Origin: Eubacteriales bacterium
GTDB taxonomy: Bacteria > Bacillota > Clostridia > Oscillospirales > Oscillospiraceae
Assembly (NCBI GenBank): GCA_030539285.1
Contig: JAUNSH010000028.1
Location: 1-38,021 of the forward strand
Direction of reading: 5' to 3'
Length of the DNA: 38,021 bases
The notes beneath the pieces were generated by a model. It searched no databases. It was not told the DNA's origin and saw only the letters and a program-made list of their open reading frames with translations. The first letter of the stretch is position 1. Every line of letters starts with the position of its first letter. Shown here in pieces: positions 3,452 to 38,021 of the stretch. The translations under genes were made by a program, and so were the position numbers.

Positions 3452-3763
3452 TCATTTCCACCCGGCAAATACGGAATCCGGCTTGGTGATATAAAAATCC
3501 TCCACACCCTGCCGGTACTTCCGGTAATCCACCCGCACAGGCCTGTCCGCCTGATCAAAGGTCTGCGTCCATACCAGCCACGAAACGTAGCGAAGCTGGC
3601 GATCCGTACCGTAAGCCATGTGGTACCCGATTTGACTGAGTTCGGCTGTGCTGTCCGGGTCATATGCTGTAACAGCTTTCAGGAATTGTGCCCGGCTCTC
3701 CTCATCAGGAAGAGAAAACCAGACCTGGTCATGTTTCTCGAACAGTTCATTTAATTGGCGCAT
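3452..3763 (-). CDS. Hypothetical protein, 103 residues
   Basis: The ATG at 3763 has AGGAGGG 8 nt upstream, so the 26 additional in-frame codons to 3841 are not used. The product is a soluble protein rich in aromatic residues, with an N-terminal charged helix and no recognisable domain or signal peptide. It converges with the DUF3892 gene and the two share the hairpin at 3393-3427. The hairpin at 3806-3827 upstream could separate it from the minus-strand operon at 4009-4629. Confidence 0.7.
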   Translation of the reverse strand: MRQLNELFEKHDQVWFSLPDEESRAQFLKAVTAYDPDSTAELSQIGYHMAYGTDRQLRYVSWLVWTQTFDQADRPVRVDYRKYRQGVEDFYITKPDSVFAGWK

Positions 3764-3805
3764 AAATAGTGCCCTCCTTAGTTTATTCCTAAAAGAGCAC
3801 GAAGA

Positions 3806-3827
3806 AAGCCCATCGGCAGACGGGCTT
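3806..3827 (-). terminator. Weak bidirectional hairpin
   Basis: The arms AAGCCCAT (3806-3813) and ACGGGCTT (3820-3827) pair with one G-U and a 6-nt loop, flanked by short T-rich stretches on both sides. It could end transcripts of the minus-strand 4009-4629 operon. Confidence 0.4.
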
Positions 3828-3858
3828 CTTTGTCGGCCCATCGTTCAAGCTTTAGCAC

Positions 3859-3968
3859 CATACCCTTCGGCGGTTGCTGTGCGGTCATTGAGCTTGTCTC
3901 TCGCGCACTCTTTATAGGCAGGTATGAAATTGGTGAGGTTTCCCTCGCTGACCTAAGTCTAGCAGATC
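3859..3968 (-). pseudogene. Possible C-terminal gene remnant, 35 codons
   Basis: In the 245-bp gap between two minus-strand genes, one minus frame is open for about 35 codons without a start. It contains NLTNFIPAYKECARDK and ends at TGA near 3859. Upstream in the same frame are two close TAG codons, preceded by more open sequence (NNVRFIGPMIC). The composition looks protein-like, so this may be the tail of a decayed gene. The family is not recognised and chance is not excluded. Confidence 0.25.
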
Positions 3969-4008
3969 ATAGGCCCAATAAAACGGACGTTATTCAAAAC
4001 GATTGCTT

Positions 4009-4227
4009 CTAATATTCCGTCGCAACATCCGTCTCGGAAATATCATAAGTATCCAGAAATTCCTGCAAGTCGCCGCCGTTGCGGATGAGCAGAACAGCAC
4101 TGAATTTCCCCGTTTGGATATTCTTGAACCCAGCCACCTGCTCCCCGGTGCAGATACTCGAACGAATCACCGGCTTCAGATTCTCCCGGTCATAGGAACA
4201 CTTTTTTGCTTTCCTTCTAAACATCAT
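4009..4227 (-). CDS. Small conserved hypothetical protein (about 72 residues)
   Basis: The product begins with a basic stretch (MMFRRKAKK) and carries CTGEQVAGF and a C-terminal region with FLDTYDI. Small proteins with this pattern occur beside unrelated enzymes in many Clostridia and are sometimes misnamed aspartate dehydrogenase; no function is established to my knowledge. A run of G lies just before the ATG pair at 4227/4224. The GTG at 4236 is less likely. It begins about 10 bp after the stop of the FMN split-barrel gene, so the two are co-transcribed from the promoter at 4655-4683. Confidence 0.65.
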   Translation of the reverse strand: MMFRRKAKKCSYDRENLKPVIRSSICTGEQVAGFKNIQTGKFSAVLLIRNGGDLQEFLDTYDISETDVATEY

Positions 4228-4236
4228 ATTCCCCAC

Positions 4237-4629
4237 TCAGAATTCTATGGTTTCGGGTGCGGAGGTAAAAGAGGAGAAGGTTGCGGTGGCATTTTTGAAG
4301 TAGAACACCTGTGTATTGCCGTCGTTTTCGTCGTACATTTTCCGCAGGCTGGGATAGGCATCCAGCATGGATTTCCGGGCTTCCACACGGTCATCCTCCA
4401 CCAGCTCGCCTGCAACACGCAGCCATGTGCCATTGTGGAATGCGCAGATCTCGGCCTTGGGGTTGGCCATCAGCTGCTTGGAAACGGGCTTCGCCTTGCC
4501 GGTCTGGATGTACAGTCTGCCTTCAAAAATGTGCGCGGTGCCAAAGGGACGAACCCGTGGCTGGTCACCCTCCACGGTTGCCAGATAGTAAGTTCCGGCA
4601 TCTTTCAGAAACTTGCATACACGTTCCAT
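4237..4629 (-). CDS. Pyridoxamine 5'-phosphate oxidase-like FMN-binding split-barrel protein
   Basis: This 130-residue protein matches the small single-domain FMN-binding split-barrel family. Features are YYLATVEGDQPRVRPFG (about 14-30), LYIQTGKAKPVSKQL (about 39-53) and AEICAFHNGTWLRVAGE. The family contains flavin reductase-like and nitroimidazole- or F420-related enzymes besides PPOX itself, so the substrate cannot be stated. The ATG at 4629 has GGAGGG 7 nt upstream. In-frame codons further upstream to 4737 run through the promoter and are rejected. It is the first gene of a two-gene operon and is divergent from the exonuclease gene at 4789. Confidence 0.85.
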   Translation of the reverse strand: MERVCKFLKDAGTYYLATVEGDQPRVRPFGTAHIFEGRLYIQTGKAKPVSKQLMANPKAEICAFHNGTWLRVAGELVEDDRVEARKSMLDAYPSLRKMYDENDGNTQVFYFKNATATFSSFTSAPETIEF

Positions 4630-4654
4630 AATGTTACCCTCCGTTTTTTCTTCC

Positions 4655-4683
4655 ATCATACTCCCAATCGCCGTCTTTGTAAA
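4655..4683 (-). promoter_or_regulatory. Sigma-A promoter of the split-barrel operon
   Basis: On the minus strand TTTACA (4678-4683), a 17-nt spacer and TATGAT (4655-4660) lie about 25 nt before the start codon at 4629. Confidence 0.65.
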
Positions 4684-4731
4684 GCCGCAAATCAAGAAAG
4701 TAGCTTTTCTTTGTCTACTGCGTATCAAAGC

Positions 4732-4760
4732 TTGCATCCCGGCGGCTTTTTCGGTATACT
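4732..4760 (+). promoter_or_regulatory. Sigma-A promoter of the exonuclease gene
   Basis: TTGCAT (4732-4737), a 17-nt spacer and TATACT (4755-4760) stand about 28 nt before the ATG at 4789. It is divergent from the promoter at 4655-4683, with about 50 bp between the two -35 boxes. Confidence 0.7.
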
Positions 4761-4788
4761 GTTCCCAGAACCATCAAGGAGAGAAAAC

Positions 4789-5340
4789 ATGAGCTATTTT
4801 GCAGTCATCGACACAGAAACCAACTGGGCCGATCAGGTCATGTCCATCGGCACCGTGATTGCGGATGCGGACACCTTCCAGCCGATTGCCGCCAAATATC
4901 ATATTCTGCCCGAGGAATGCGCCATCGGCGGTATATTCTACGACGCCCTGTTTCTGGACACTCCTGTGGAGCCCATCCTATGCACCCGCGAGGAAGCCGT
5001 GGCAGATTTGTCCAGGTGGCTGTACCGGTATGACGTGACTTCCCTATTCGCCTACAATGCGGGCTTTGACCGAAACCATCTGCCGGAACTACATCGTTTT
5101 GATTGGTACGACATCATGCGCATTGCGATTTACCGCCAGCACAATCCTAAAATCCCCGCCTGCGCCGACTGCTACAGCACTGGGCGCATGAAGCGGGGTT
5201 ACGGCGTGGAGTCCATGCTCCGTATGCTTTCCGAGAATTGTACATATCGGGAAACCCACAATGCGCTGTTTGATGCTCTGGATGAACTGGAAATCGTCCG
5301 GCTGCTTGGGCACGGAATCCACGAATATATTCTGCTGTGA
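4789..5340 (+). CDS. DnaQ-like 3'-5' exonuclease (DEDDh)
   Basis: This 183-residue protein consists of an RNase T/DnaQ-type exonuclease fold. Exo I is DTE (8-10), Exo II is NAGFD (90-94) and Exo III is HNALFD (157-162), so the two-metal active-site acids and the general-base histidine are present. No further domain is attached, which fits a stand-alone exonuclease of unknown substrate rather than a polymerase subunit. The ATG at 4789 has AAGGAGAG a few nt upstream and its own promoter. Open frame further upstream to 4003 is a shadow of minus-strand genes. A hairpin follows the stop by 5 bp. Confidence 0.85.
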   Translation: MSYFAVIDTETNWADQVMSIGTVIADADTFQPIAAKYHILPEECAIGGIFYDALFLDTPVEPILCTREEAVADLSRWLYRYDVTSLFAYNAGFDRNHLPELHRFDWYDIMRIAIYRQHNPKIPACADCYSTGRMKRGYGVESMLRMLSENCTYRETHNALFDALDELEIVRLLGHGIHEYILL

Positions 5341-25975: not shown

Positions 25976-28900
25976 ATGCCGAGTAAAGCAGAATTGTATG
26001 CACAGATGGCCGACCAGGTGGCAACCCGGCTCACCTGCAGCTGGCAGGAATGGGCGGCGTTCCTTACTACCGCCGCCCGCCTTTACAAATATCCCTACCA
26101 TGAGCAGCTGATGATCTATGCCCAGCGCCCGGATGCCACCGCTTGTGCGGAGTATGACCTTTGGAATAACCGGATGGGCCGGTATGTGAAGCGCGGCTCC
26201 AGGGGAATTGCCCTGGTGGACGATTCCGGGGACCGGCCACGGCTGCGCTATGTCTTTGATGTCTCTGACACCGGGGAACGGGAAAACTCCCGCCGCCCGT
26301 GGCTCTGGACCATGAAGCCAGAACATATCATTCCAGTGTCCGCCATGCTGGAGCGCCGCTATGGTGTCGCAGACAGCGATTTTCCCCAGCAGCTGGCCAG
26401 TATTGCCGGACAGCTGGCAGATGAATATTGGAACGATCACCAGCAGGACATTCTCCGCATCGTTGACGATTCCTTTTTGGAGGAGTACGATGAACTTAAC
26501 ATATCGGTGCAATTCCGCTCTGCCGCCGCTGTCAGCATCACCTATTCCTTGATGTCCCGTTGTGGGCTGGAGCCGGAACAGTATTTTGACCATGAGGATT
26601 TCATGGCAATCTTCGATTTTAACACACCGGCCACCGTTGCTGCCCTCGGAACAGCGGTCAGCCAGATCAATCAGCAGGTGCTGCGGCAAATCGGTGTCAC
26701 CATTCAAAATGCAGAGCGCGAGAAAATCGCGGAAAGGAGATCACAGGATGAACAACACATTGACTTACAGACAGAACGGGGACTATCTGATCCCCAACCT
26801 GGAACTGAGCGAACAGCCGGTGAAGCCCCTGGGCAAGTACGGAAGGATGCGGAAAACCTATCTGAAGGAACACCGCCCGATTCTTTACAGCCAGATGCTG
26901 CTGTCGGAGAAGCTGTACCCGCACCTTCTGGAGATCGACGAGACCGCGAACAGCCGTCTGGAGCAGATGATCCCGGAGCTGGCGAAAGCGGCGGGCGCGA
27001 CAGAGGCCCTGAAAGCCAGCGACCCGATGCGGTGGGTCGGGCTGATGAACAACTGCAAGGCCCAGGCGGAGGAAGTGATTCTGGCGGAGCTTATCAACAA
27101 CTGACATTGAATTTGTTCCTGTCCGAGCAGGAACAAATTCATAATATTGAGCAAGCGGAGAGCCGACAGCCCTCCGCTTTTTCTATGCCCCAACCGGTGC
27201 CTGCAAAACTGGCCCCTGAACCGGCGCGACCCATGGATACCCAGGCCGCCATTGATGCAGCACTCCAGGAATGGAATGGCGACATCAGGAGCAAGCAGGC
27301 CGTTGTCCGTTATATGAAAGATCATGCCCGCGATAAGGGTACGGCGGCATGGCTGAAGCAGGAGTATGGAGATGATCTTCCGGCATTTCCGGTTCCGGCC
27401 GCTGCTGCGGATTTGCCGTGGGCAAAGGTACAGCGCCGGATTGCCCAGCTCATCAAGGATGATCGGTTTTTCACGGAAGAAGAACAGAACCACTTTGATG
27501 ATATTGACCCTATTGCTATCCGGGAAGCCCTGGAACAGCGTGGTATTGTAGGCGGTCAGGTAGTTGACTCCGAAAAGCTGGATCAGGACCCGTTTATCCG
27601 GCAAGTGACCTCCGATGTGGAGCGCATTGCCCAAGAGGAACAGGCCCAGGCTCCCGATCTGTCCGGCCAGCCCATTACCCGTCAGGGCGATACCATTACC
27701 ATCGGGGACGGCGAAACCACCCATGAGGTTGATATAACCGTATCCGATGAGGAATGGCAGCACATCCAGGAGGTTATCCCTGATACATCGGTCCTCAATT
27801 ATAAGGTGGGCGATACAGTCTATCTGGACAATAAGCCTTTTACGGTTGAACGCATTGGGACTTTCGATGTGCAGCTGCGCGATCCTTCTCTGGCTTATCC
27901 TATCTTCCGGTCAGAATCCAAGGAACGTTTCCTTGAGCTGGCCGCACAGGATGATAGAAATGTGGGTATATTTTTCCCTGACGTTGCAGCATGGGAAAAA
28001 GAGCGCCAGAAACAGATCGAAGCGATTGTAGCTGCCTTAACTCCGGAGCAGCAACGTATTGTTCAGGCCATGCACACCGGCGGATTTGAATTTGATCCTC
28101 TGAACGCCCATCCACCCCGAGAAGCCCTGATTTTTCGTAGTAATGGTGATGGCTACCCAATTACCTTTGAAAATTGGGATGATGCTTATGCATGGATTGA
28201 TGGCGCAGAGCTGAAAGACTATCCCGGCTTACGGGAGCAGGTCCAGCAAGTTTTACACCCGGAACAGGCTGTGCCGGAAATTACATCGGAGCCGGTAACG
28301 GTCTATCCCGGCGAGAAAAACGGTCTTCCCTATGATATTGTAGTGGAACGGCTGCATATTGAAAAACCTGAGCCAATGCCGCCGACAGCAGCACCGTCCA
28401 CTGACAACTTCCGCATTACAGATAAGCAGCTGGGCGTGGGTGGCCCGAAAGCCAAATTCCGCGCTAACATGGATGCCATCAATACCTTAAAAACGATTGA
28501 GCTGGAGGAACGCACGGCAACCAAAGAGGAGCAGGAAGTCCTCTCTCGCTATGTGGGCTGGGGCGGCATCCCGGAAGCCTTTGACCCGGATAACAAGTCC
28601 TGGGAGAATGAATATTTGGAATTGAGTGCCGCCCTGTCTCCTGCGGAATATGAAGCTGCCAGAGCCTCCACCCTGAACGCCCACTACACCAGCCCCACGG
28701 TCATCCGCGCTATCTATGAAGCTGTCGGCAACATGGGGTTTACAGCGGGGAACATCTTGGAACCGGCCTGCGGCGTCGGAAACTTCTTCGGTATGCTGCC
28801 GGAGGAAATGTCCGGCTCCCGTCTGTACGGTGTGGAGCTGGATTCCATCAGCGGACGGATCGCAAAACAGCTCTATCCCAAAGCAGATATTACGGTGGCC

Positions 28901-31900
28901 GGTTTTGAAACCACAGACCGCCGCGATTTTTATGATCTGGCCGTAGGCAATGTTCCGTTTGGACAGTATCAGGTCAATGACCGGGCATATAACAAGTTGG
29001 GCTTCAACATCCACAACTATTTCTTTGCCAAAGCACTTGACCAGGTACGTCCGGGCGGTGTGGTTGCCTTTGTCACCAGCCGCTATACCATGGATGCCAA
29101 AAGTCCCGAAGTGCGGAAGTATCTGGCACAGCGGGCAGATTTTCTGGGTGCAATCCGCTTGCCCAACAATGCGTTCAGAGCCAACGCTGGTACAGATGTG
29201 GTCTCCGATATTATCTTTCTGCAAAAACGTGACCGGCCCATCGACATCGAGCCGGACTGGGTGCATTTGGGACAAAACGAGGATGGCTTTGCGATCAACA
29301 GCTACTTTGTAGACCACCCGGAGATGATCTTGGGCAGGCAGACCTCCGAAAGCACCCAATATGGCAGGCAGGACTTCACGGTTGCACCGATTGAGGGGCT
29401 GGAGCTGGCCGACCAGCTCCATGACGCTGTGAAGTACATTCGCGGCACCTATCAGGAAGCAGAGCTGCCGGAGCTGGGCGAGGGTGAAGAAATCGACACC
29501 TCCATCCCGGCAGACCCCAACGTGAAAAACTACTCCTATGCTGTGGTGGACGGCGAGGTGTACTTCCGGGAAAACAGCCGCATGGTAAAGCCAGACCTGA
29601 ACGCCACCGCCGAGGCCCGCATCAAGGGCATGGTTGCCCTGCGGGACTGTGTGCATCAGCTTATTGACCTTCAGATGGACGAGTACACACCGGACTCCGC
29701 TATTCGGGAAAAGCAGGGGGAATTGAACCGGCTCTATGATGCGTTTTCCGCCAAATACGGGCTTATCAATGACCGAGGAAACCGACTGGCCTTTTCGGAC
29801 GATTCTTCGTATTATCTCCTGTGTGCGCTGGAAGTGCTGGACGAGGACGGGAAGCTGGAGCGCAAGGCGGATATGTTCACCAAACGTACCATCAAGCCCC
29901 ACAAGGCTGTGACCACGGTGGACACCGCCAGCGAAGCCCTTGCCGTTTCCATTGCGGAAAAAGCCAGGGTGGATATGGAGTATATGTCCCAGCTGACCGG
30001 TAAACCCACCGAGGAAATTGCGGCAGAACTGTCCGGCGTTATTTTCAAAGACCCGTCCTATGGCAGAGATCCGCTTTCCGGCTGGCAGACCACAGACGAA
30101 TACCTGTCCGGCAATGTCCGTCAGAAGCTCCGGGCGGCACAGCGGGCAGCAGAACGCGATCCGGCTTTTGCCGTCAACGTGGAAGCCCTGAAAGCAGCCC
30201 AGCCCAAGGACTTGGACGCATCGGAAATTGAGGTTCGCTTGGGTGCTACCTGGATTGACAAGGAATATATCCGTCAGTTCATGTATGAAACCTTTGACAC
30301 GCCCCGGTATCTGCGCGGCACCATTGATGTGAACTATTCCGCTTACACCGCCGAGTGGCAGATTACCGGCAAAACACAGATACCCTACAACAACATCGCG
30401 GCCTATACCACCTATGGTACAGACCGCGCCAACGCTTACCGCATCCTGGAGGATTCTTTGAATCTCCGGGATGTTCGCATTTATGACACCATAGAGGATG
30501 CAGACGGCAAGGAACGCCGGGTGCTGAACGCCAAAGAAACCACCCTGGCCGCACAGAAACAGCAGGCCATTCGGGATGCCTTCAAAGACTGGATTTGGAG
30601 AGACCCTGAACGGCGGCAGGCTCTGGTGCGCCAGTACAATGAGGAAATGAACAGCACCCGCCCCCGCGAGTATGACGGAAGCCATATCGTTTTCTCCGGT
30701 ATGAACCCGGAAATCACCCTGCGGGAACATCAGAAAAGTGCTATCGCCCATGTGCTATACGGTGGGAATACGCTGCTGGCCCATGAAGTAGGCGCAGGCA
30801 AGACCTTTGAGATGGTAGCCGCTGCCATGGAATCCAAGCGGCTGGGCCTGTGCCAGAAATCCATCTTTGTAGTGCCGAACCACCTGACCGAGCAATGGGC
30901 CTCTGAGTTCCTGCGGCTATATCCCTCCGCCAACATCCTTGTGACTACCAAAAAGGACTTTGAAACCCACCGGCGCAAGAAATTCTGTGCCAGGATTGCC
31001 ACCGGCGACTATGATGCAATCATCATTGGACACTCCCAGTTTGAGCGTATTCCCATCAGCAAGGAGCGTCAGGAACGACTTCTTCAGGAGCAGATTGCAG
31101 AAATCACCGAGGGCATTTCCGAGGTGGAATCCAGCGGGGGCGAACGGTTTACCGTCAAGCAGTTGGAGCGTACCAAACGTGGGCTGGAAGCACGGCTTGA
31201 AAAGCTGCAAGCCGATCACAGAAAGGATGATGTGATTACCTTTGAACAGCTGGGTGTTGACCGACTGTTTGTAGATGAAGCGCACAATTACAAGAATTTG
31301 TTCCTCTACACAAAGATGAGGAACGTGGCTGGCCTATCCACCACAGATGCCCAGAAATCCTCCGATATGTTTGCCAAATGCCGCTACATGGACGAGATCA
31401 CCGGGAGCCGTGGCGTAGTTTTTGCCACCGGCACCCCGGTCAGCAATTCCATGACCGAGCTATATACCATGCAGCGGTATTTGCAGTATGACCGGCTGCA
31501 AGAGCTGGGCATGGCTCACTTTGACTGCTGGGCTTCCCGGTTTGGAGAGACTGCTACCGCCCTGGAGCTGGCCCCGGAAGGCACGGGCTACCGGGCAAGG
31601 ACACGGTTTTCCAAGTTCTTTAACCTGCCGGAGCTGATGAATCTGTTCAAAGAGGTGGCGGACATTAAGACCGCCGATCAGCTGCATCTGCCGACGCCGG
31701 AGGTGGAGTATCACACGGTTGTGGCAAAACCCACAGAGCATCAGCAGGAAATGGTGCAGGCCCTGTCTGAACGCGCTGCTCTGGTACATGGAGGATCAGT
31801 TGACCCCTCCACGGACAATATGCTCAAGATCACATCGGATGGCCGGAAACTGGGTCTTGACCAGCGGATTATCAGTCCGCTGCTGCCTGATGAGGCAGGC

Positions 31901-33337
31901 ACTAAGGTCAACCAATGCGTGGAGAACATCATGCAGATTTGGAGGGACGGGCAGGCTGAGAAGCTGACCCAGCTTGTATTCTGCGACATTTCCACACCGA
32001 AACCGGCACCGTCCAAAAAAGTTGCCAAAGCCGTCAGCGGAAATCTGGATAGCCCGGAGATTCACGCTTTAGAAACTGCTATTTCCATGCCGGAGTCGGA
32101 ACCGGAATTTTCCGTTTATGAGGACATCCGTCAAAAGCTGATTGCCGGGGGCGTGCCACCAGAGCAGATTGCTTTCATCCATGAGGCCAATACAGAGGTG
32201 CGGAAAAAGGAGCTGTTCAGCAAAGTACGCACTGGCCAAGTGCGCGTTTTGATCGGCAGCACATCTAAAATGGGAGCCGGGACCAATGTGCAGGACCGCC
32301 TTGTGGCACTCCATGACCTGGATTGTCCTTGGAGGCCCGGAGATCTGGCCCAGCGTAAAGGCCGCATTGAGCGCCAGGGCAACCAGAATGAACGCGTCCA
32401 TGTGTTCCGCTATGTGACGGAGGGAACCTTCGACGCCTACCTCTGGCAGACCGTGGAGAACAAACAGAAGTTCATTTCACAGATCATGACCAGCAAAAGT
32501 CCGGTGCGCTCCTGCGACGATGTGGACGAAACAGCGCTGTCCTTTGCAGAAATCAAGGCCCTGTGTGCCGGTGATCCCCGCATCAAAGAGCGTATGGATT
32601 TGGAAGTAGATGTATCCCGTCTGAAGCTAATGAAAGCTGACCACCAAAGCAAGCAGTTTCGTCTGGAGGACAATCTGCTGAAATACTTCCCGGAACAGAT
32701 CGAAAAGAACAAGGGCTTTATCGCCGGGCTTCAGGCAGATATGGAAACGCTGAAAGCCCATCCCCACCCGGAAGAAGGATTCGCCGGAATGGAAATCCGG
32801 GGTGATACGCTGGTAGACAAAGAAAATGCTGGTGCCGCACTTTTGGACGCCTGTAAAGAAGTGAAAAGCTCCGAGCCAGTGCAGATCGGCAGCTATCGGG
32901 GCTTCACCATGTTCGTCAGCTTCAACGCTTTCGAGAAGCAGTACGAACTGACGCTGCGGGGGGAAATGAGCCATAAAGCAATGTTGGGTACTGATCTGCG
33001 CGGCAATCTGATCCGTATCGACAACGCACTGGCACAGATGCCTGGGCGTCTGGCCAGTGTGCAGGCTCAGCTGGACAACCTCTACCAACAACAGGAGGCA
33101 GCCAGAGCCGAGATTGGCAAGCCGTTTCCCCATGAACAGGAGCTTCGGGAAAAGTCGGCGCGGCTGGTGGAACTGGATACGGCCCTGAACCTGGATGGCC
33201 GGAGCCGGACGCAGCCGGAGCAGATAATCGCCAAGAGTACAAAGCCCTCCGTGTTAAGCAAACTGAAAACTCCGCCTGTCCATGGCGCACTGGATAGGAG
33301 TCATAAGAAAGCAGAAAGGAAGGAACCGACGATATGA
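25976..33337 (+). CDS. Giant DNA methylase-like/SNF2-type helicase protein
   Basis: This 2453-residue protein begins with an ArdC-like domain (about 10-110, LYKYPYHEQLMIYAQRPDA). Its disordered Gly/Asp/Arg linker (about 258-376) is the out-of-frame reading of the nested tnpV gene. Several small domains follow (about 380-800). The N6-adenine methyltransferase-like domain has EPACGVGNFFG near 928, but NVPFG near 991 where active enzymes have NPPY/F. The helicase has HEVGAGKTF near 1605, DEAH near 1767, ATGTPVSNS near 1816 and QRKGRIERQG near 2126. Coiled C-terminal segments end in a basic tail. AAAGGAGG precedes the ATG. Such giants are ICE backbone proteins; a role in DNA entry, unwinding or anti-defence is inferred. 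Confidence 0.88.
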   Translation: MPSKAELYAQMADQVATRLTCSWQEWAAFLTTAARLYKYPYHEQLMIYAQRPDATACAEYDLWNNRMGRYVKRGSRGIALVDDSGDRPRLRYVFDVSDTGERENSRRPWLWTMKPEHIIPVSAMLERRYGVADSDFPQQLASIAGQLADEYWNDHQQDILRIVDDSFLEEYDELNISVQFRSAAAVSITYSLMSRCGLEPEQYFDHEDFMAIFDFNTPATVAALGTAVSQINQQVLRQIGVTIQNAEREKIAERRSQDEQHIDLQTERGLSDPQPGTERTAGEAPGQVRKDAENLSEGTPPDSLQPDAAVGEAVPAPSGDRRDREQPSGADDPGAGESGGRDRGPESQRPDAVGRADEQLQGPGGGSDSGGAYQQLTLNLFLSEQEQIHNIEQAESRQPSAFSMPQPVPAKLAPEPARPMDTQAAIDAALQEWNGDIRSKQAVVRYMKDHARDKGTAAWLKQEYGDDLPAFPVPAAAADLPWAKVQRRIAQLIKDDRFFTEEEQNHFDDIDPIAIREALEQRGIVGGQVVDSEKLDQDPFIRQVTSDVERIAQEEQAQAPDLSGQPITRQGDTITIGDGETTHEVDITVSDEEWQHIQEVIPDTSVLNYKVGDTVYLDNKPFTVERIGTFDVQLRDPSLAYPIFRSESKERFLELAAQDDRNVGIFFPDVAAWEKERQKQIEAIVAALTPEQQRIVQAMHTGGFEFDPLNAHPPREALIFRSNGDGYPITFENWDDAYAWIDGAELKDYPGLREQVQQVLHPEQAVPEITSEPVTVYPGEKNGLPYDIVVERLHIEKPEPMPPTAAPSTDNFRITDKQLGVGGPKAKFRANMDAINTLKTIELEERTATKEEQEVLSRYVGWGGIPEAFDPDNKSWENEYLELSAALSPAEYEAARASTLNAHYTSPTVIRAIYEAVGNMGFTAGNILEPACGVGNFFGMLPEEMSGSRLYGVELDSISGRIAKQLYPKADITVAGFETTDRRDFYDLAVGNVPFGQYQVNDRAYNKLGFNIHNYFFAKALDQVRPGGVVAFVTSRYTMDAKSPEVRKYLAQRADFLGAIRLPNNAFRANAGTDVVSDIIFLQKRDRPIDIEPDWVHLGQNEDGFAINSYFVDHPEMILGRQTSESTQYGRQDFTVAPIEGLELADQLHDAVKYIRGTYQEAELPELGEGEEIDTSIPADPNVKNYSYAVVDGEVYFRENSRMVKPDLNATAEARIKGMVALRDCVHQLIDLQMDEYTPDSAIREKQGELNRLYDAFSAKYGLINDRGNRLAFSDDSSYYLLCALEVLDEDGKLERKADMFTKRTIKPHKAVTTVDTASEALAVSIAEKARVDMEYMSQLTGKPTEEIAAELSGVIFKDPSYGRDPLSGWQTTDEYLSGNVRQKLRAAQRAAERDPAFAVNVEALKAAQPKDLDASEIEVRLGATWIDKEYIRQFMYETFDTPRYLRGTIDVNYSAYTAEWQITGKTQIPYNNIAAYTTYGTDRANAYRILEDSLNLRDVRIYDTIEDADGKERRVLNAKETTLAAQKQQAIRDAFKDWIWRDPERRQALVRQYNEEMNSTRPREYDGSHIVFSGMNPEITLREHQKSAIAHVLYGGNTLLAHEVGAGKTFEMVAAAMESKRLGLCQKSIFVVPNHLTEQWASEFLRLYPSANILVTTKKDFETHRRKKFCARIATGDYDAIIIGHSQFERIPISKERQERLLQEQIAEITEGISEVESSGGERFTVKQLERTKRGLEARLEKLQADHRKDDVITFEQLGVDRLFVDEAHNYKNLFLYTKMRNVAGLSTTDAQKSSDMFAKCRYMDEITGSRGVVFATGTPVSNSMTELYTMQRYLQYDRLQELGMAHFDCWASRFGETATALELAPEGTGYRARTRFSKFFNLPELMNLFKEVADIKTADQLHLPTPEVEYHTVVAKPTEHQQEMVQALSERAALVHGGSVDPSTDNMLKITSDGRKLGLDQRIISPLLPDEAGTKVNQCVENIMQIWRDGQAEKLTQLVFCDISTPKPAPSKKVAKAVSGNLDSPEIHALETAISMPESEPEFSVYEDIRQKLIAGGVPPEQIAFIHEANTEVRKKELFSKVRTGQVRVLIGSTSKMGAGTNVQDRLVALHDLDCPWRPGDLAQRKGRIERQGNQNERVHVFRYVTEGTFDAYLWQTVENKQKFISQIMTSKSPVRSCDDVDETALSFAEIKALCAGDPRIKERMDLEVDVSRLKLMKADHQSKQFRLEDNLLKYFPEQIEKNKGFIAGLQADMETLKAHPHPEEGFAGMEIRGDTLVDKENAGAALLDACKEVKSSEPVQIGSYRGFTMFVSFNAFEKQYELTLRGEMSHKAMLGTDLRGNLIRIDNALAQMPGRLASVQAQLDNLYQQQEAARAEIGKPFPHEQELREKSARLVELDTALNLDGRSRTQPEQIIAKSTKPSVLSKLKTPPVHGALDRSHKKAERKEPTI
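26748..27104 (+). CDS. tnpV: TnpV protein, nested in the helicase gene (+1 frame)
   Basis: This 118-residue protein matches the TnpV family: LTYRQNGDYLIPNLEL at the N-terminus, GKYGRMRKTYLKEHR, LYPHLLEIDETANSRLEQM, and MRWVGLMNNCKAQAEEVIL near the C-terminus. AAAGGAG stands 8 nt before the ATG. The whole gene lies inside the 2453-residue ORF, shifted by +1, and the helicase frame stays open across it. TnpV was named from Tn4451-type elements, but its function is poorly known. The good ribosome site and complete family-length ORF argue for real translation. Confidence 0.82.
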   Translation: MNNTLTYRQNGDYLIPNLELSEQPVKPLGKYGRMRKTYLKEHRPILYSQMLLSEKLYPHLLEIDETANSRLEQMIPELAKAAGATEALKASDPMRWVGLMNNCKAQAEEVILAELINN

Positions 33338-34422
33338 ACAATCAAGAGCTGAATACCGAACTTTATCAAAAAATGTCTGCCGAACAGGACACCTACCGGA
33401 AGTGGTTGCTGGAGCAGTCCCCGGAGGAGATTCTGAAATACGCTTATGAATACACAGCGCGGGAGGATATTCTGCTGTCGCTGGAATACCACGATCTGAC
33501 GGATGCCCAAGCCGCCGCACTTTTGAAATCGCCCTCTCCGCTGGCAGATGTGTTCAAGGAATTTGACCACAGGGAAACTGACCACATGGATCAGGTTTTC
33601 TATGCAATGCAGGATCGGGCAGACGATGTGCTGGAGGCGGAGGAAAAACAGCGGCGCGTCCTGCGGGAGACACCAGTTTATCGTTATCCCGCGAGCTATG
33701 CCCGTGAGCATGATGAGCTGGAACAATACCGGGCCTCTCACAAAGCAAATGTGGCTTGCAAGGAAGCCATTGAAGCAGCGATTTCCGCTCATTACAGCGA
33801 TAACCGTTTGGGCAGGGAGGCTGCGCTGGAGGTGATTGAAGCCTTTGGCATGGAGCGCACCATGTATGTTCTGGCCAATACCGTCCGGCATAAAGATTGG
33901 GACGGGCGTATCTCTCACGACAATAAGATGTGGGCCATGACAATTCCTGTTCATGCGGACAAGAATCAATGGGGTGATAACCGCAACACAGAGTTTGTGG
34001 TGGACAAATCCCACCCTGGTCTGACGGACCTCTTTGTGAATCAGGTGCGCCGGGAACAGCTTCTGCGGACGCCGCTAACCAACGAAGAAATCCAGCGGGA
34101 GGCCGAACGGCTGCTTTCGGCACTTCAAGCCCCAAAGGAACCCAACAGTCCCAGCGGCACACACTTCATGGCGCAGATTTCACCGGACTTTCTGGTACGG
34201 GCCTCCACCAAGGATACGGACCGGCTCATGGCGACGCTGCCGTTTCGCTCCACCACCTTCTCCGGTCTCAATGACCGCAAGGGGCATTTTGTCCTGATTA
34301 CCAAAGGCGAGGACCGGAGCCAGCCGCTCAGAAAGCTTCGCCGTTCTGTGCGGAAGGATCTTCAGAAAGCGCCGGATGGCACAAAGAAACCCGCCGCTAA
34401 ACGGCGGGAACCGGAGCGATAA
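33334..34422 (+). CDS. DUF3848/DUF3849-type ICE protein
   Basis: This 362-residue protein begins with a helical domain holding ILKYAYEYTAREDILLSLE (DUF3848-like). The DUF3849-like part (about 120-250) has VYRYPASYAREHDELEQY, MERTMYVLANTVRHKDWDG and a C-terminal FVNQVRREQLL. The tail is basic. These families occur in conjugative elements next to the helicase gene and have no proven function. The ATG overlaps the helicase stop by 4 bp. It is followed by mobC after 4 bp. Confidence 0.8.
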   Translation: MNNQELNTELYQKMSAEQDTYRKWLLEQSPEEILKYAYEYTAREDILLSLEYHDLTDAQAAALLKSPSPLADVFKEFDHRETDHMDQVFYAMQDRADDVLEAEEKQRRVLRETPVYRYPASYAREHDELEQYRASHKANVACKEAIEAAISAHYSDNRLGREAALEVIEAFGMERTMYVLANTVRHKDWDGRISHDNKMWAMTIPVHADKNQWGDNRNTEFVVDKSHPGLTDLFVNQVRREQLLRTPLTNEEIQREAERLLSALQAPKEPNSPSGTHFMAQISPDFLVRASTKDTDRLMATLPFRSTTFSGLNDRKGHFVLITKGEDRSQPLRKLRRSVRKDLQKAPDGTKKPAAKRREPER

Positions 34423-34426
34423 GCCT

Positions 34427-34768
34427 ATGGCGGCAAAGCGCAATCGGAATGTGCAGGTGAACTTCCGTGTCTCTCCCCATGAACTGGAACTGATCGAGGC
34501 AAAGATGGCACAGGTTGGAACCACAAACCGGGAAGCCTATCTGCGAAAAATGGCGATTGACGGGTATATTGTCCGGCTGGATTTACCGGAACTGAAAGAA
34601 TTGGTCTCCCTCCTTCGTTATTCCAGCAATAACTTAAACCAACTCACCCGGCGAGTGCATGAAACTGGGCGTGTATATGATGCAGATTTGGAGGATATAC
34701 TCCAAAAGCAGGAGGCCATTTGGTCCGGGGTAAATGAGATATTGACCCGTCTTAGTTCGATTTCATAA
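34427..34768 (+). CDS. mobC: MobC relaxosome accessory protein
   Basis: This 113-residue protein has an N-terminal ribbon-helix-helix-like segment (RNVQVNFRVSPHELELIEAKM) and the MobC signature YSSNNLNQLTRRVHETG. MobC binds and locally melts oriT to help the relaxase. The ATG at 34427 follows a weak CCGGAG site; the in-frame ORF back to 34376 lies in the preceding gene. In most related elements the relaxase comes soon after, whereas here it is 2.8 kb away because cargo intervenes. Confidence 0.88.
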   Translation: MAAKRNRNVQVNFRVSPHELELIEAKMAQVGTTNREAYLRKMAIDGYIVRLDLPELKELVSLLRYSSNNLNQLTRRVHETGRVYDADLEDILQKQEAIWSGVNEILTRLSSIS

Positions 34769-36066: not shown

Positions 36067-36098
36067 GATTCACAATCCTTTCTCAGCAGCCTATTTTT
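36051..36098. terminator. Bidirectional terminator shared by two convergent genes
   Basis: An 18-bp perfect stem, with left arm 36051-36068 (AAAAATAGGCTGCTGAGA) and right arm 36081-36098, has a 12-nt loop and A/T tails on both sides. The TGA of the + gene (36064-36066) and the TAG of the minus XRE gene (36091-36093) both lie in the stem. Confidence 0.9.
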
Positions 36099-36285
36099 TG
36101 AACTCAACAATATCATTCGGTGTACATCCGATGATATCACATAATTTTTCCAAAGTGAGCAACGTAATATTTCTGTTCTTTTTCAACGCATCCAGCGTTT
36201 TGTTATCTATACCATTTTTTAAGAGCTGATATTGCGTGATGTGTCGTTCGTTCATTGTTTTCCAAAGAGGACTGAAATCTATCAT
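36091..36285 (-). CDS. XRE-family helix-turn-helix regulator
   Basis: This 64-residue single-domain Cro/C1-type regulator has an HTH covering about residues 13-50 (ITQYQLLKNGIDNKTLDAL), with LEKLCDIIGCTPNDIVEF as the closing helices. The short cHTH/XRE_26-like type is common in Firmicutes. The ATG at 36285 has AAAGGTGG 8 nt upstream; the GTG at 36297 is an alternative. A minus-strand TATAAT lies upstream. It is divergent from the SLOG gene, and a palindrome in the intervening promoter could be its operator. Confidence 0.82.
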   Translation of the reverse strand: MIDFSPLWKTMNERHITQYQLLKNGIDNKTLDALKKNRNITLLTLEKLCDIIGCTPNDIVEFKK

Positions 36286-36346
36286 TCGGATCACCACCTT
36301 TAACGATGTTTCAAATAAATTATATGGTGGTTCCCCTTAAATAAAT

Positions 36347-36461: not shown

Positions 36462-36953
36462 ATGGAAAATAATAGGGAATGTGAGTACAGCTGTTGTTTT
36501 ACCGGGCATCGTCCAGAAAAGCTCCAAGCTCCAGATTCTCTTGTAATTAAAGAGCTGGACAGTGCGATCAAGAATGCTATTAACAACGGATATTCAACTT
36601 TCATAACCGGAATGGCAAAAGGAGTGGATATTTGGGCCGCAGAATTGGTACTGCGTGACCGGAGAAGATTTCCGCAAATTAAGCTAGTTTGCGCCATACC
36701 GTACAAAGGATTTGGTTTGCATTGGGATAAGGAATGGACGAGCAGATTCTTGCGAATTATTCAACAAGCAAATGCTGTCCACTATATCTGTCCGAAGTTC
36801 TCGTATGGAGCATATCAGGCGCGAAATATCTGGATGGTTGACCATTCCTCATTGGTAATTGCCGTATATAACGGTTCAAGCGGAGGCACCAGGAATACGA
36901 TTGCATATGCGCAAGAGCAGGCTAACTGTAAAGTTCAATACATAACTCTATAA
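36462..36953 (+). CDS. SLOG (DUF1273/YpsA-like) family protein
   Basis: This 163-residue protein has a Rossmann-like SLOG fold: CCFTGHRPEKL (about 11-21), FITGMAKGVDIWAAELVL (about 47-64), an acidic/aromatic middle and a C-terminal NGSSGGTRNTIAYAQ. SLOG proteins are predicted to bind nucleotides or nucleotide-derived signals and are often found in mobile and defence settings. The ligand here is unknown. GAGGTG lies just before the ATG. The gene is AT-rich compared with the ICE backbone and is preceded by a strong promoter with a possible operator. Confidence 0.82.
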   Translation: MENNRECEYSCCFTGHRPEKLQAPDSLVIKELDSAIKNAINNGYSTFITGMAKGVDIWAAELVLRDRRRFPQIKLVCAIPYKGFGLHWDKEWTSRFLRIIQQANAVHYICPKFSYGAYQARNIWMVDHSSLVIAVYNGSSGGTRNTIAYAQEQANCKVQYITL

Positions 36954-37585: not shown

Positions 37586-37967
37586 ATGGCGACCACAAGA
37601 ATCATGCCACTTCACACAGGCAAAGGCCGGACAGTCGGTCAGGCCATTAGCGATATCATTGATTATGTTGAGAACCCAGAAAAAACGGATCATGGTAATC
37701 TCATTACCTGCTATCAATGTGATAGTCGGATTGCGGATGCAGAGTTTCTTTTTGCAAAAAAACGATACATCCAGAAAACCGGGCGAATGCGCGGCGAGGA
37801 TGATGTGATCGCCTACCATCTACGGCAGTCCTTCGTCCCTGGAGAGATCACGCCGGAGGAAGCGAACTGGCTGGGCCAGGAGCTTGCCCGGAGATTCACC
37901 AAAGGGGAAAACGCCTTTATCGTCTGCACCCACATTGACAAAGCACATATTCACAATCACATCATTT
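37586..37967 (+). CDS. MOB_P-type relaxase, 5' exon (interrupted)
   Basis: The first 127 codons of a mobilisation relaxase are present, up to HNHII plus one base. A likely nucleophile is Tyr27 in IIDYVENPEKT. Motif II is YHLRQSF (about 78-84). Motif III is HIDKAHIHNH, the metal-binding histidine cluster. AAAGGAGG stands 8 nt before the ATG at 37586. The frame then runs into GTGCGCCC and stops at 38017, only about 17 codons after the motif, whereas relaxases of this group normally continue for hundreds of residues. The break matches a group II intron start, so functional enzyme should need splicing and the 3' exon outside the window. Confidence 0.88.
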
Positions 37968-38021
37968 GTGCGCCCATAAGGGGCAGAGTAAATCCGCTTA
38001 GCAAGCGGCTGGCGTGAGGTT
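37968..38021 (+). mobile_element. Group II intron, 5' end (continues past window)
   Basis: The relaxase reading is broken by GTGCGCCC, the conserved 5' start of group II introns (GUGYG; Ll.LtrB begins GUGCGCCC). The next bases fold as domain I does: GCCC ATAA GGGGC, then CCGCTT AGC AAGCGG as a perfect hairpin. The proposed splice site follows ATCATTT in the relaxase motif III region, so IBS1 would be about TCATTT. The remainder of the ribozyme and any reverse transcriptase/maturase gene are outside the window. Confidence 0.8.

Follow-up and report, generated by a model that had tools for sequence, protein, structure and literature searches.

The locus and its surroundings

The window, i.e. 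the whole stretch of DNA that was analysed, is an entire contig, and position 38021 is the final base of this 38021-bp sequence. The genes that precede a relaxase gene at its right-hand end comprise CD1107-like, topoisomerase and ArdC/YodL/DUF4316 genes, a gene for a SNF2-type helicase of 2453 amino acids, a DUF3848/DUF3849 gene and a NikA/MobC-like gene. These are the surroundings of a conjugative element, which we take to be an integrative element of the Tn1549 type. The features of importance here are as follows.

25976..33337, plus strand: SNF2-type helicase gene (Pfam SNF2-rel_dom), 2453 aa, uninterrupted
34376..34768, plus strand: NikA/MobC-like relaxosome accessory gene (Pfam PF21983, PF05713)
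37586..37967, plus strand: 5' exon of a presumed MobP-type relaxase gene (PF03432), ending in HIDKAHIHNHII and the first base (T) of the next codon
37953..37957, plus strand: possible IBS2 (tentative, by eye), ACAAT of CACAAT, which would pair with the GTTGT loop of L041, L024 and L079
37962..37967, plus strand: putative IBS1, TCATTT, by analogy with the EBS1 of relatives
37968..38021, plus strand: first 54 nt (start of domain I) of what is almost certainly a group II intron, cut by the contig end; GTGCG 5' end, 53/54 identical to the intron of Blautia wexlerae
37994..38008, plus strand: domain I hairpin CCGCTT-AGC-AAGCGG, with compensatory changes among relatives

Two further reading frames separate the MobC-like gene from the relaxase: a 68-aa open reading frame (36091-36297, minus strand), whose product by eye resembles a small helix-turn-helix protein, and a gene of the YpsA/SLOG family (36462-36953, plus strand; Pfam PF06908).

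The relaxase exon and the intron boundary

The relaxase open reading frame (37586-37967, 127 aa) matches the Pfam Relaxase family (PF03432, E 6.4e-23), has AAAGGAGG directly upstream and translates from position 37586 as MATTRIMPLH...THIDKAHIHNHII. It carries the sequence HIDKAHIHNH, for which we assume the motif HxDxxxxHxHN and the label MobP. The last relaxase motif read is HIHNHII; it is followed by GTGCGCCC, whose first base is 37968.

Does the protein end here naturally, or has it been cut? An intron-free relaxase of the same genus is 80% identical over the 127 aa. The relaxase stretch has matches in 11 of 101 genomes of the genus, the window's own included, and, leaving aside the window itself, the nine top matches stop at base 404 or 395 of the 457-base query, i.e. 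at window position 37968 or 37959. Of 14 relative relaxase loci in the genus, one falls short of the HNH motif; the 13 others are all intron-free and read past it, with 203-362 residues to the next stop (one locus reaches its contig end after 258). The continuation is HNH(I/V)I-W in nine loci, HNHII-F in two and HNHIY-Y in two. To judge by these relatives, the split codon of the window relaxase, which starts with T, was most likely TGG. The sequence-only reading, that a normal relaxase runs into an intron right behind its histidine motif, is borne out, with the boundary placed at 37968.

The stretch beyond the boundary opens with GTGCG, in agreement with the GUGYG of group II 5' ends. Because the contig ends at 38021, the reverse transcriptase, domain V, EBS1 and 3' exon of the window copy are out of view. 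Two small hairpins that might belong to domain I had been pointed out, and both can be drawn in the 54 nt. The second stem (37994-38008) gains support, as 4-7 pairs are kept via several compensatory changes in 11 hairpins of relatives that were delimited by eye; the folding of the whole 54-nt piece, however, is no better than that of shuffled sequences (z 0.09). No Rfam group II model matched the whole window, or positions 37900-38021 with lax thresholds, because 54 nt of domain I are too short; two chance snoRNA matches on the opposite strand were all that appeared.

Traces of the remainder of the intron were sought elsewhere. In the window's own genome (84% complete), several searches, one of which had no positive control, gave no credible further intron 5' end, intron 3' end or 3' relaxase exon. 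The 54-nt query returned just two records from the plasmid collection, with a 19-nt chance match, and the pattern of the insertion site described below matched twice in viral contigs, as one identical unrelated sequence. Two other reverse transcriptases are encoded in this genome (G000:C15, 1288-2367, and G000:C97, 1210-2343, both minus strand). One best fits the PADLOC model RT_VI (retron-like, E 3e-70); the second is unassigned and weakly like group II and DRT families. Both were rejected as the reverse transcriptase of the intron, the one as retron-like and the other with a score of 81 against the 300-bit group II cut-off.

The same insertion site in other bacteria

A pattern of the insertion site (coding HNH-I-(I/V), then T, then GTGYG) was searched for in a collection of 84,980 species and gave 28 matches, 14 of them in relaxases. 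All 14 relaxase-borne introns start with GTGCG(C/T)(C/T)CATA. The other 14 matches are not in relaxases, are about as numerous as expected by chance and were dropped. The carriers are Peptoniphilus asaccharolyticus, Butyrivibrio hungatei (two loci), bacterium D16-56, a Tissierellia MAG, two Lachnospiraceae MAGs, a Holdemania MAG, Blautia wexlerae, a MAG labelled 'Mycobacteriales', Ezakiella, an Oscillospiraceae MAG, Allofustis seminis and Parvimonas parva. In the Mycobacteriales-labelled MAG (L042/L076), the relaxase with the intron resembles that of Peptoniphilus; the contig is probably mis-binned, or else transfer has been very wide.

Within the window's own family the site pattern was found in 2 of 400 sampled genomes, the window's own included. 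A domain I probe matched 6 of the 400, namely the L024 locus (94% identity) and five others at 67-79% over parts, two of which could be placed; both are in other genes. Among the genomes with the relaxase insertion, the probe matched 10 of 12, the misses being the genomes of L040 and L053.

Not all copies are whole. Two of the 14 relaxase loci hold clearly decayed copies. Similarity is lost after about 20 nt in L040, and L053 (Parvimonas parva, intron start 1176) has an internal deletion, with domain V kept and no relaxase exon behind. At the same site in L024 (311-1200, G452:C37), the IEP breaks off after ~120 residues and unrelated DNA follows; a domain V search of this contig gave no match. 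L024 also has a second, open relaxase gene (3742-5166, minus strand), with HIHTHII instead of HIHNHII.

The complete intron of Blautia wexlerae (L041) spans 285-2754, i.e. 2470 nt, and can serve as a guide to what would lie beyond the end of the window. Its IEP of 605 aa (837-2654) consists of RVT_1, type II intron maturase (Intron_maturas2) and AI2M-like HNH domains, scores 310 bits with TIGR04416 (cut-off 300), and matches residues 19-594 of LtrA (PDB) with its residues 18-599 (E 3.9e-147), a full-length homology. The Rfam domain V-VI model matches at 2658-2754 (57.5 bits), and, of the seven relative loci that were scanned with RF00029, five gave a match (L041, L052, L029, L053 and L031). 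The 3' exon begins at 2755. Counted from the first whole codon, its frame stays open over 342 residues, and its alignment with the corresponding part of an intron-free relaxase from the genus of the window starts at residue 1 (26% over 328 positions, E 7e-38); a BLASTP comparison with exon 2 of LtrB gave nothing significant. Thus the LtrA-like reverse transcriptase/maturase, the domain V and the in-frame 3' exon, which the sequence-only reading had expected within a few kilobases, are all found in an intron whose start differs from that of the window at one base in 54; in the window they would be beyond the contig end.

Further complete copies are those of Peptoniphilus (2476 nt) and Allofustis (2477 nt), each with exon 2 open and in frame. 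The copy in the Tissierellia MAG (L073) measures 1245 nt; it has lost its open reading frame and has a domain V-like end, and its in-frame exon 2 is open for only ~115 residues. Such an ORF-less intron would need a maturase from elsewhere. The introns end in AC in Blautia, Allofustis and the Tissierellia MAG and in GC in Peptoniphilus.

Movement of the intron

The 54 nt of the window are identical to the Blautia intron at 53/54 positions, to that of L024 (G452) at 52/54 and to that of the Holdemania MAG at 51/54. With the other eleven introns compared, 35-43 of 50-53 aligned bases are shared. The adjoining relaxase exons are far more diverged, with 164/272 aligned bases identical between window and Blautia and 203/293 between window and Holdemania. 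Near identity of the intron alongside divergence of the exons indicates that the intron moved between relaxases separately from its host gene.

The ends of contigs are also of relevance. With k = 55, a de Bruijn assembler breaks off a unique sequence 54 nt into one that is repeated in the data. The window contig breaks exactly 54 nt into the intron and, if the assembler was of this kind, the sample would contain the same intron end in one or more further contexts. The Holdemania MAG contig ends 87 nt into the intron, which would suit another common k. Others that end inside the intron are L065 (the same as L037), L062 (the same as L048, Ezakiella), L066 and L068 (Butyrivibrio) and L077 (Lachnospiraceae MAG).

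Recognition of the target

How might the intron recognize this site? EBS1 was taken by eye from the alignment of relatives, as a loop at intron positions 279-288. Eleven introns could be counted; L040 and L053 were excluded as domain I is not there, and L037 as its contig ends before EBS1. The loop occurs as AAATGA, AGATGA, AGATTA, AAATAA and AGATCA. The TCATTT of the window would form 6/6 pairs with AAATGA (L024, L077, L078, L030 and L044), and five plus one G.U with AGATGA (L041). In the 11 relatives, EBS1 and IBS1 form 55 of 66 possible Watson-Crick pairs, with no mismatch in four introns and one mismatch in seven. Pairing is perfect in cases where the exons differ, e.g. TCATCT with AGATGA in Blautia and TTATTT with AAATAA in L076. 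In a control for covariation in which exons were swapped among these 11 introns, the mean was 52.7 against 55, which is not significant (p = 0.17). Other 6-mers that pair equally well within the first 620 nt (or the available part) are absent from five introns and number one or two in three; in L073, L075 and L074, about 8-37 other 6-mers pair as well as the presumed EBS1. In view of the swap result and of these competing 6-mers, the loop at 279-288 is put forward as the likely EBS1, from alignment and pairing, and not as a demonstrated covariation.

In introns of the LtrA (mitochondrial-like, IIA) class the base 5' of EBS1 pairs with the first base of the 3' exon (delta-delta'). The candidate bases in the relatives are an A before EBS1 in 11/11 and a T as first 3' exon base (Phe-Asn) in all four copies with a readable 3' end. 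As TGG is found in 9/9 of the closest relatives of the window relaxase, the 3' exon of the window would start with G, and the A-T contact of the readable copies would then be missing.

Relation to Ll.LtrB and to other introns

The comparison that suggests itself is with Ll.LtrB. Ll.LtrB of Lactococcus and Ef.PcfG of Enterococcus faecalis likewise have an LtrA-type IEP, sit in the histidine motif of a relaxase in a conjugative element and start with GTGCGCCC, as read from pFI430 (L086) and described in PMC5072309; their hosts differ from those of the introns described here. In pFI430 (L086), Ll.LtrB reads CACATCCATAAC followed by GTGCGCCC, whereas the window reads CATATTCACAATCACATCATTT followed by GTGCGCCC. 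Ll.LtrB thus sits after the AAC of HIHN, before the next H, which agrees with the site HIHN-H given in the accessible text of PMC5072309. The window intron is not at this homing site. It lies exactly 10 nt downstream, and a shift of about this size had been proposed in the sequence-only reading.

Had the shift arisen in a separate lineage? The IEPs of the introns at the HNHII site are 41-44% identical to LtrA and 49-54% identical to those of introns in SNF2 helicase and traG genes. Three of them make up a clade that is supported at 100/100 in each of the two trees (of 16 and 22 rows), and LtrA stands elsewhere on a long branch in both free trees, with forks in between that are partly weak. The AU test did not reject a topology in which both groups of relaxase-site introns are united (p-AU 0.182 and 0.12). 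The sequence-only reading had spoken of a different or independently adapted lineage. That the lineage is different is upheld by the clade and by the identity values; independent colonization of the HNHII site is likely on the protein comparisons, with the joint tree still allowed.

The nearest IEPs to that of Blautia in plasmid records are from introns with other target genes, in pGTC3 of E. faecalis (SNF2 helicase, 53.2%) and in Bacteroides faecis (traG, 53.7%). The HNHII-site clade groups with the SNF2 and traG introns at 83/94 in the first tree and weakly, at 65/43, in the second. The pGTC3 intron (L025, 3894) lies directly after CPWRPSDIE of the SNF2 helicase; the equivalent WRPGD motif of the window helicase (CPWRPGD, residue 2119) is empty.

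Similar patterns have been described for ICEs of Streptococcus suis, where four IEP families are each directed to one conserved conjugation-gene motif and have invaded several ICE families; the targets given in the accessible text are virB4, a helicase (two sites) and the coupling protein, and a relaxase site is not named there (PMC12479173). Recorded insertion sites thus comprise the virB4, helicase and coupling-protein genes of ICEs (PMC12479173, PMC9815147) and also orf14 of Tn5397 (PMC4430133). Tn1549 of E. faecium has a 2588-bp LtrA-like insertion at nt 5014/5015, with an IEP 43% identical to LtrA; it resembles the window intron by description, and the accessible text does not name its gene (PMC4143159). 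A literature search, in which subscription journals were thinly covered and specialist intron databases lay outside the scope, found no report of an intron at the HNHII site.

Alternative explanations

Positions 37968-38021 are almost certainly the start of a mobile group II intron of the LtrA class (IIA-like), one that targets specifically the catalytic histidine motif in the MobP relaxases of conjugative elements and has entered behind the first base of the codon next to HNHII. That the relaxase family simply ends near here, with GTGCGCCC present by chance, was the possibility that the sequence-only reading had set against itself. The frame does meet a stop at 38015-38017, but the 13 intron-free relatives all read on, and this, together with the match to a complete intron at the same site, leaves the natural end with a negligible probability. 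A chimeric assembly, in which the intron end of another organism was joined to the window relaxase, would account for a contig that stops after 54 nt, for a genome that yields no second intron stretch and for near-identical introns in unrelated species. The junction, however, coincides to the base with the insertion point in 14 other relaxase loci, which a chimera would not choose, and the contigs of other genomes also end inside the intron, as expected of a sequence repeated in the data set. A chimera is therefore regarded as very improbable.

Two other possibilities concern the kind of intron. The window copy might be truncated or dead and leave behind a disrupted relaxase. Broken copies do exist at the same site (L024, L053 and L040), and L073 is ORF-less; against this, the visible 54 nt are nearly identical to those of an intact intron, and the relaxase exon of the window is intact and open. 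A dead copy is unlikely on this evidence, although it deserves more weight than a chimera. The intron might also belong to the Ll.LtrB/Ef.PcfG line, with a shifted target. A shared protein family and host gene, the adjacent site and the p-AU values of the joint clade speak for such a shift, but the IEPs are closer to those of the SNF2 helicase and traG introns than to LtrA, and LtrA stands apart in both free trees; this origin is rated as a little less probable still than a dead copy.

Functional and evolutionary significance

The intron at the HNHII site is a relative of Ll.LtrB that is specific for its site and moves horizontally. Its RNA would pair with the exon through EBS1 and EBS2, splicing aided by the maturase would restore the relaxase message, and retrohoming could spread the intron into the relaxases of other elements brought in by conjugation. 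With Ll.LtrB, relaxase expression needs splicing and is restrained by the intron, and nicks made by the relaxase stimulate retrotransposition, as described in the accessible text of PMC4256276 and PMC6003770. By analogy, the introns of the HNHII line may also splice, and conjugation may depend on it; they may likewise restrain the relaxase and be mobilized more readily by its nicks.

A broader scenario can be proposed, and stands at about an even chance: LtrA-class introns radiated in conjugative elements, each on a different transfer-gene motif (relaxase, SNF2 helicase, TraG/VirB4 or coupling protein), and the histidine motif of the relaxase was colonized on two independent occasions at points 10 nt from each other, once in Lactobacillales by the Ll.LtrB line and once by the HNHII line. 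The latter is seen in Blautia, Butyrivibrio, Peptoniphilus, Parvimonas, Ezakiella, Allofustis and others.

Ll.LtrB is the model for the life of a group II intron within the gene of a conjugation enzyme. With another line at a nearby site in several genera of Firmicutes, the two can be compared as they occur in nature: which target bases are under constraint, and do EBS changes follow synonymous codon changes? It also bears on how general intron control over relaxase expression might be. There is a warning for annotation as well, as the relaxases of such elements appear truncated and contigs break within these introns. Elsewhere in the window, a SAM riboswitch (RF00162; 3835-3920, minus strand, 57.8 bits) is the sole Rfam match at gathering score.
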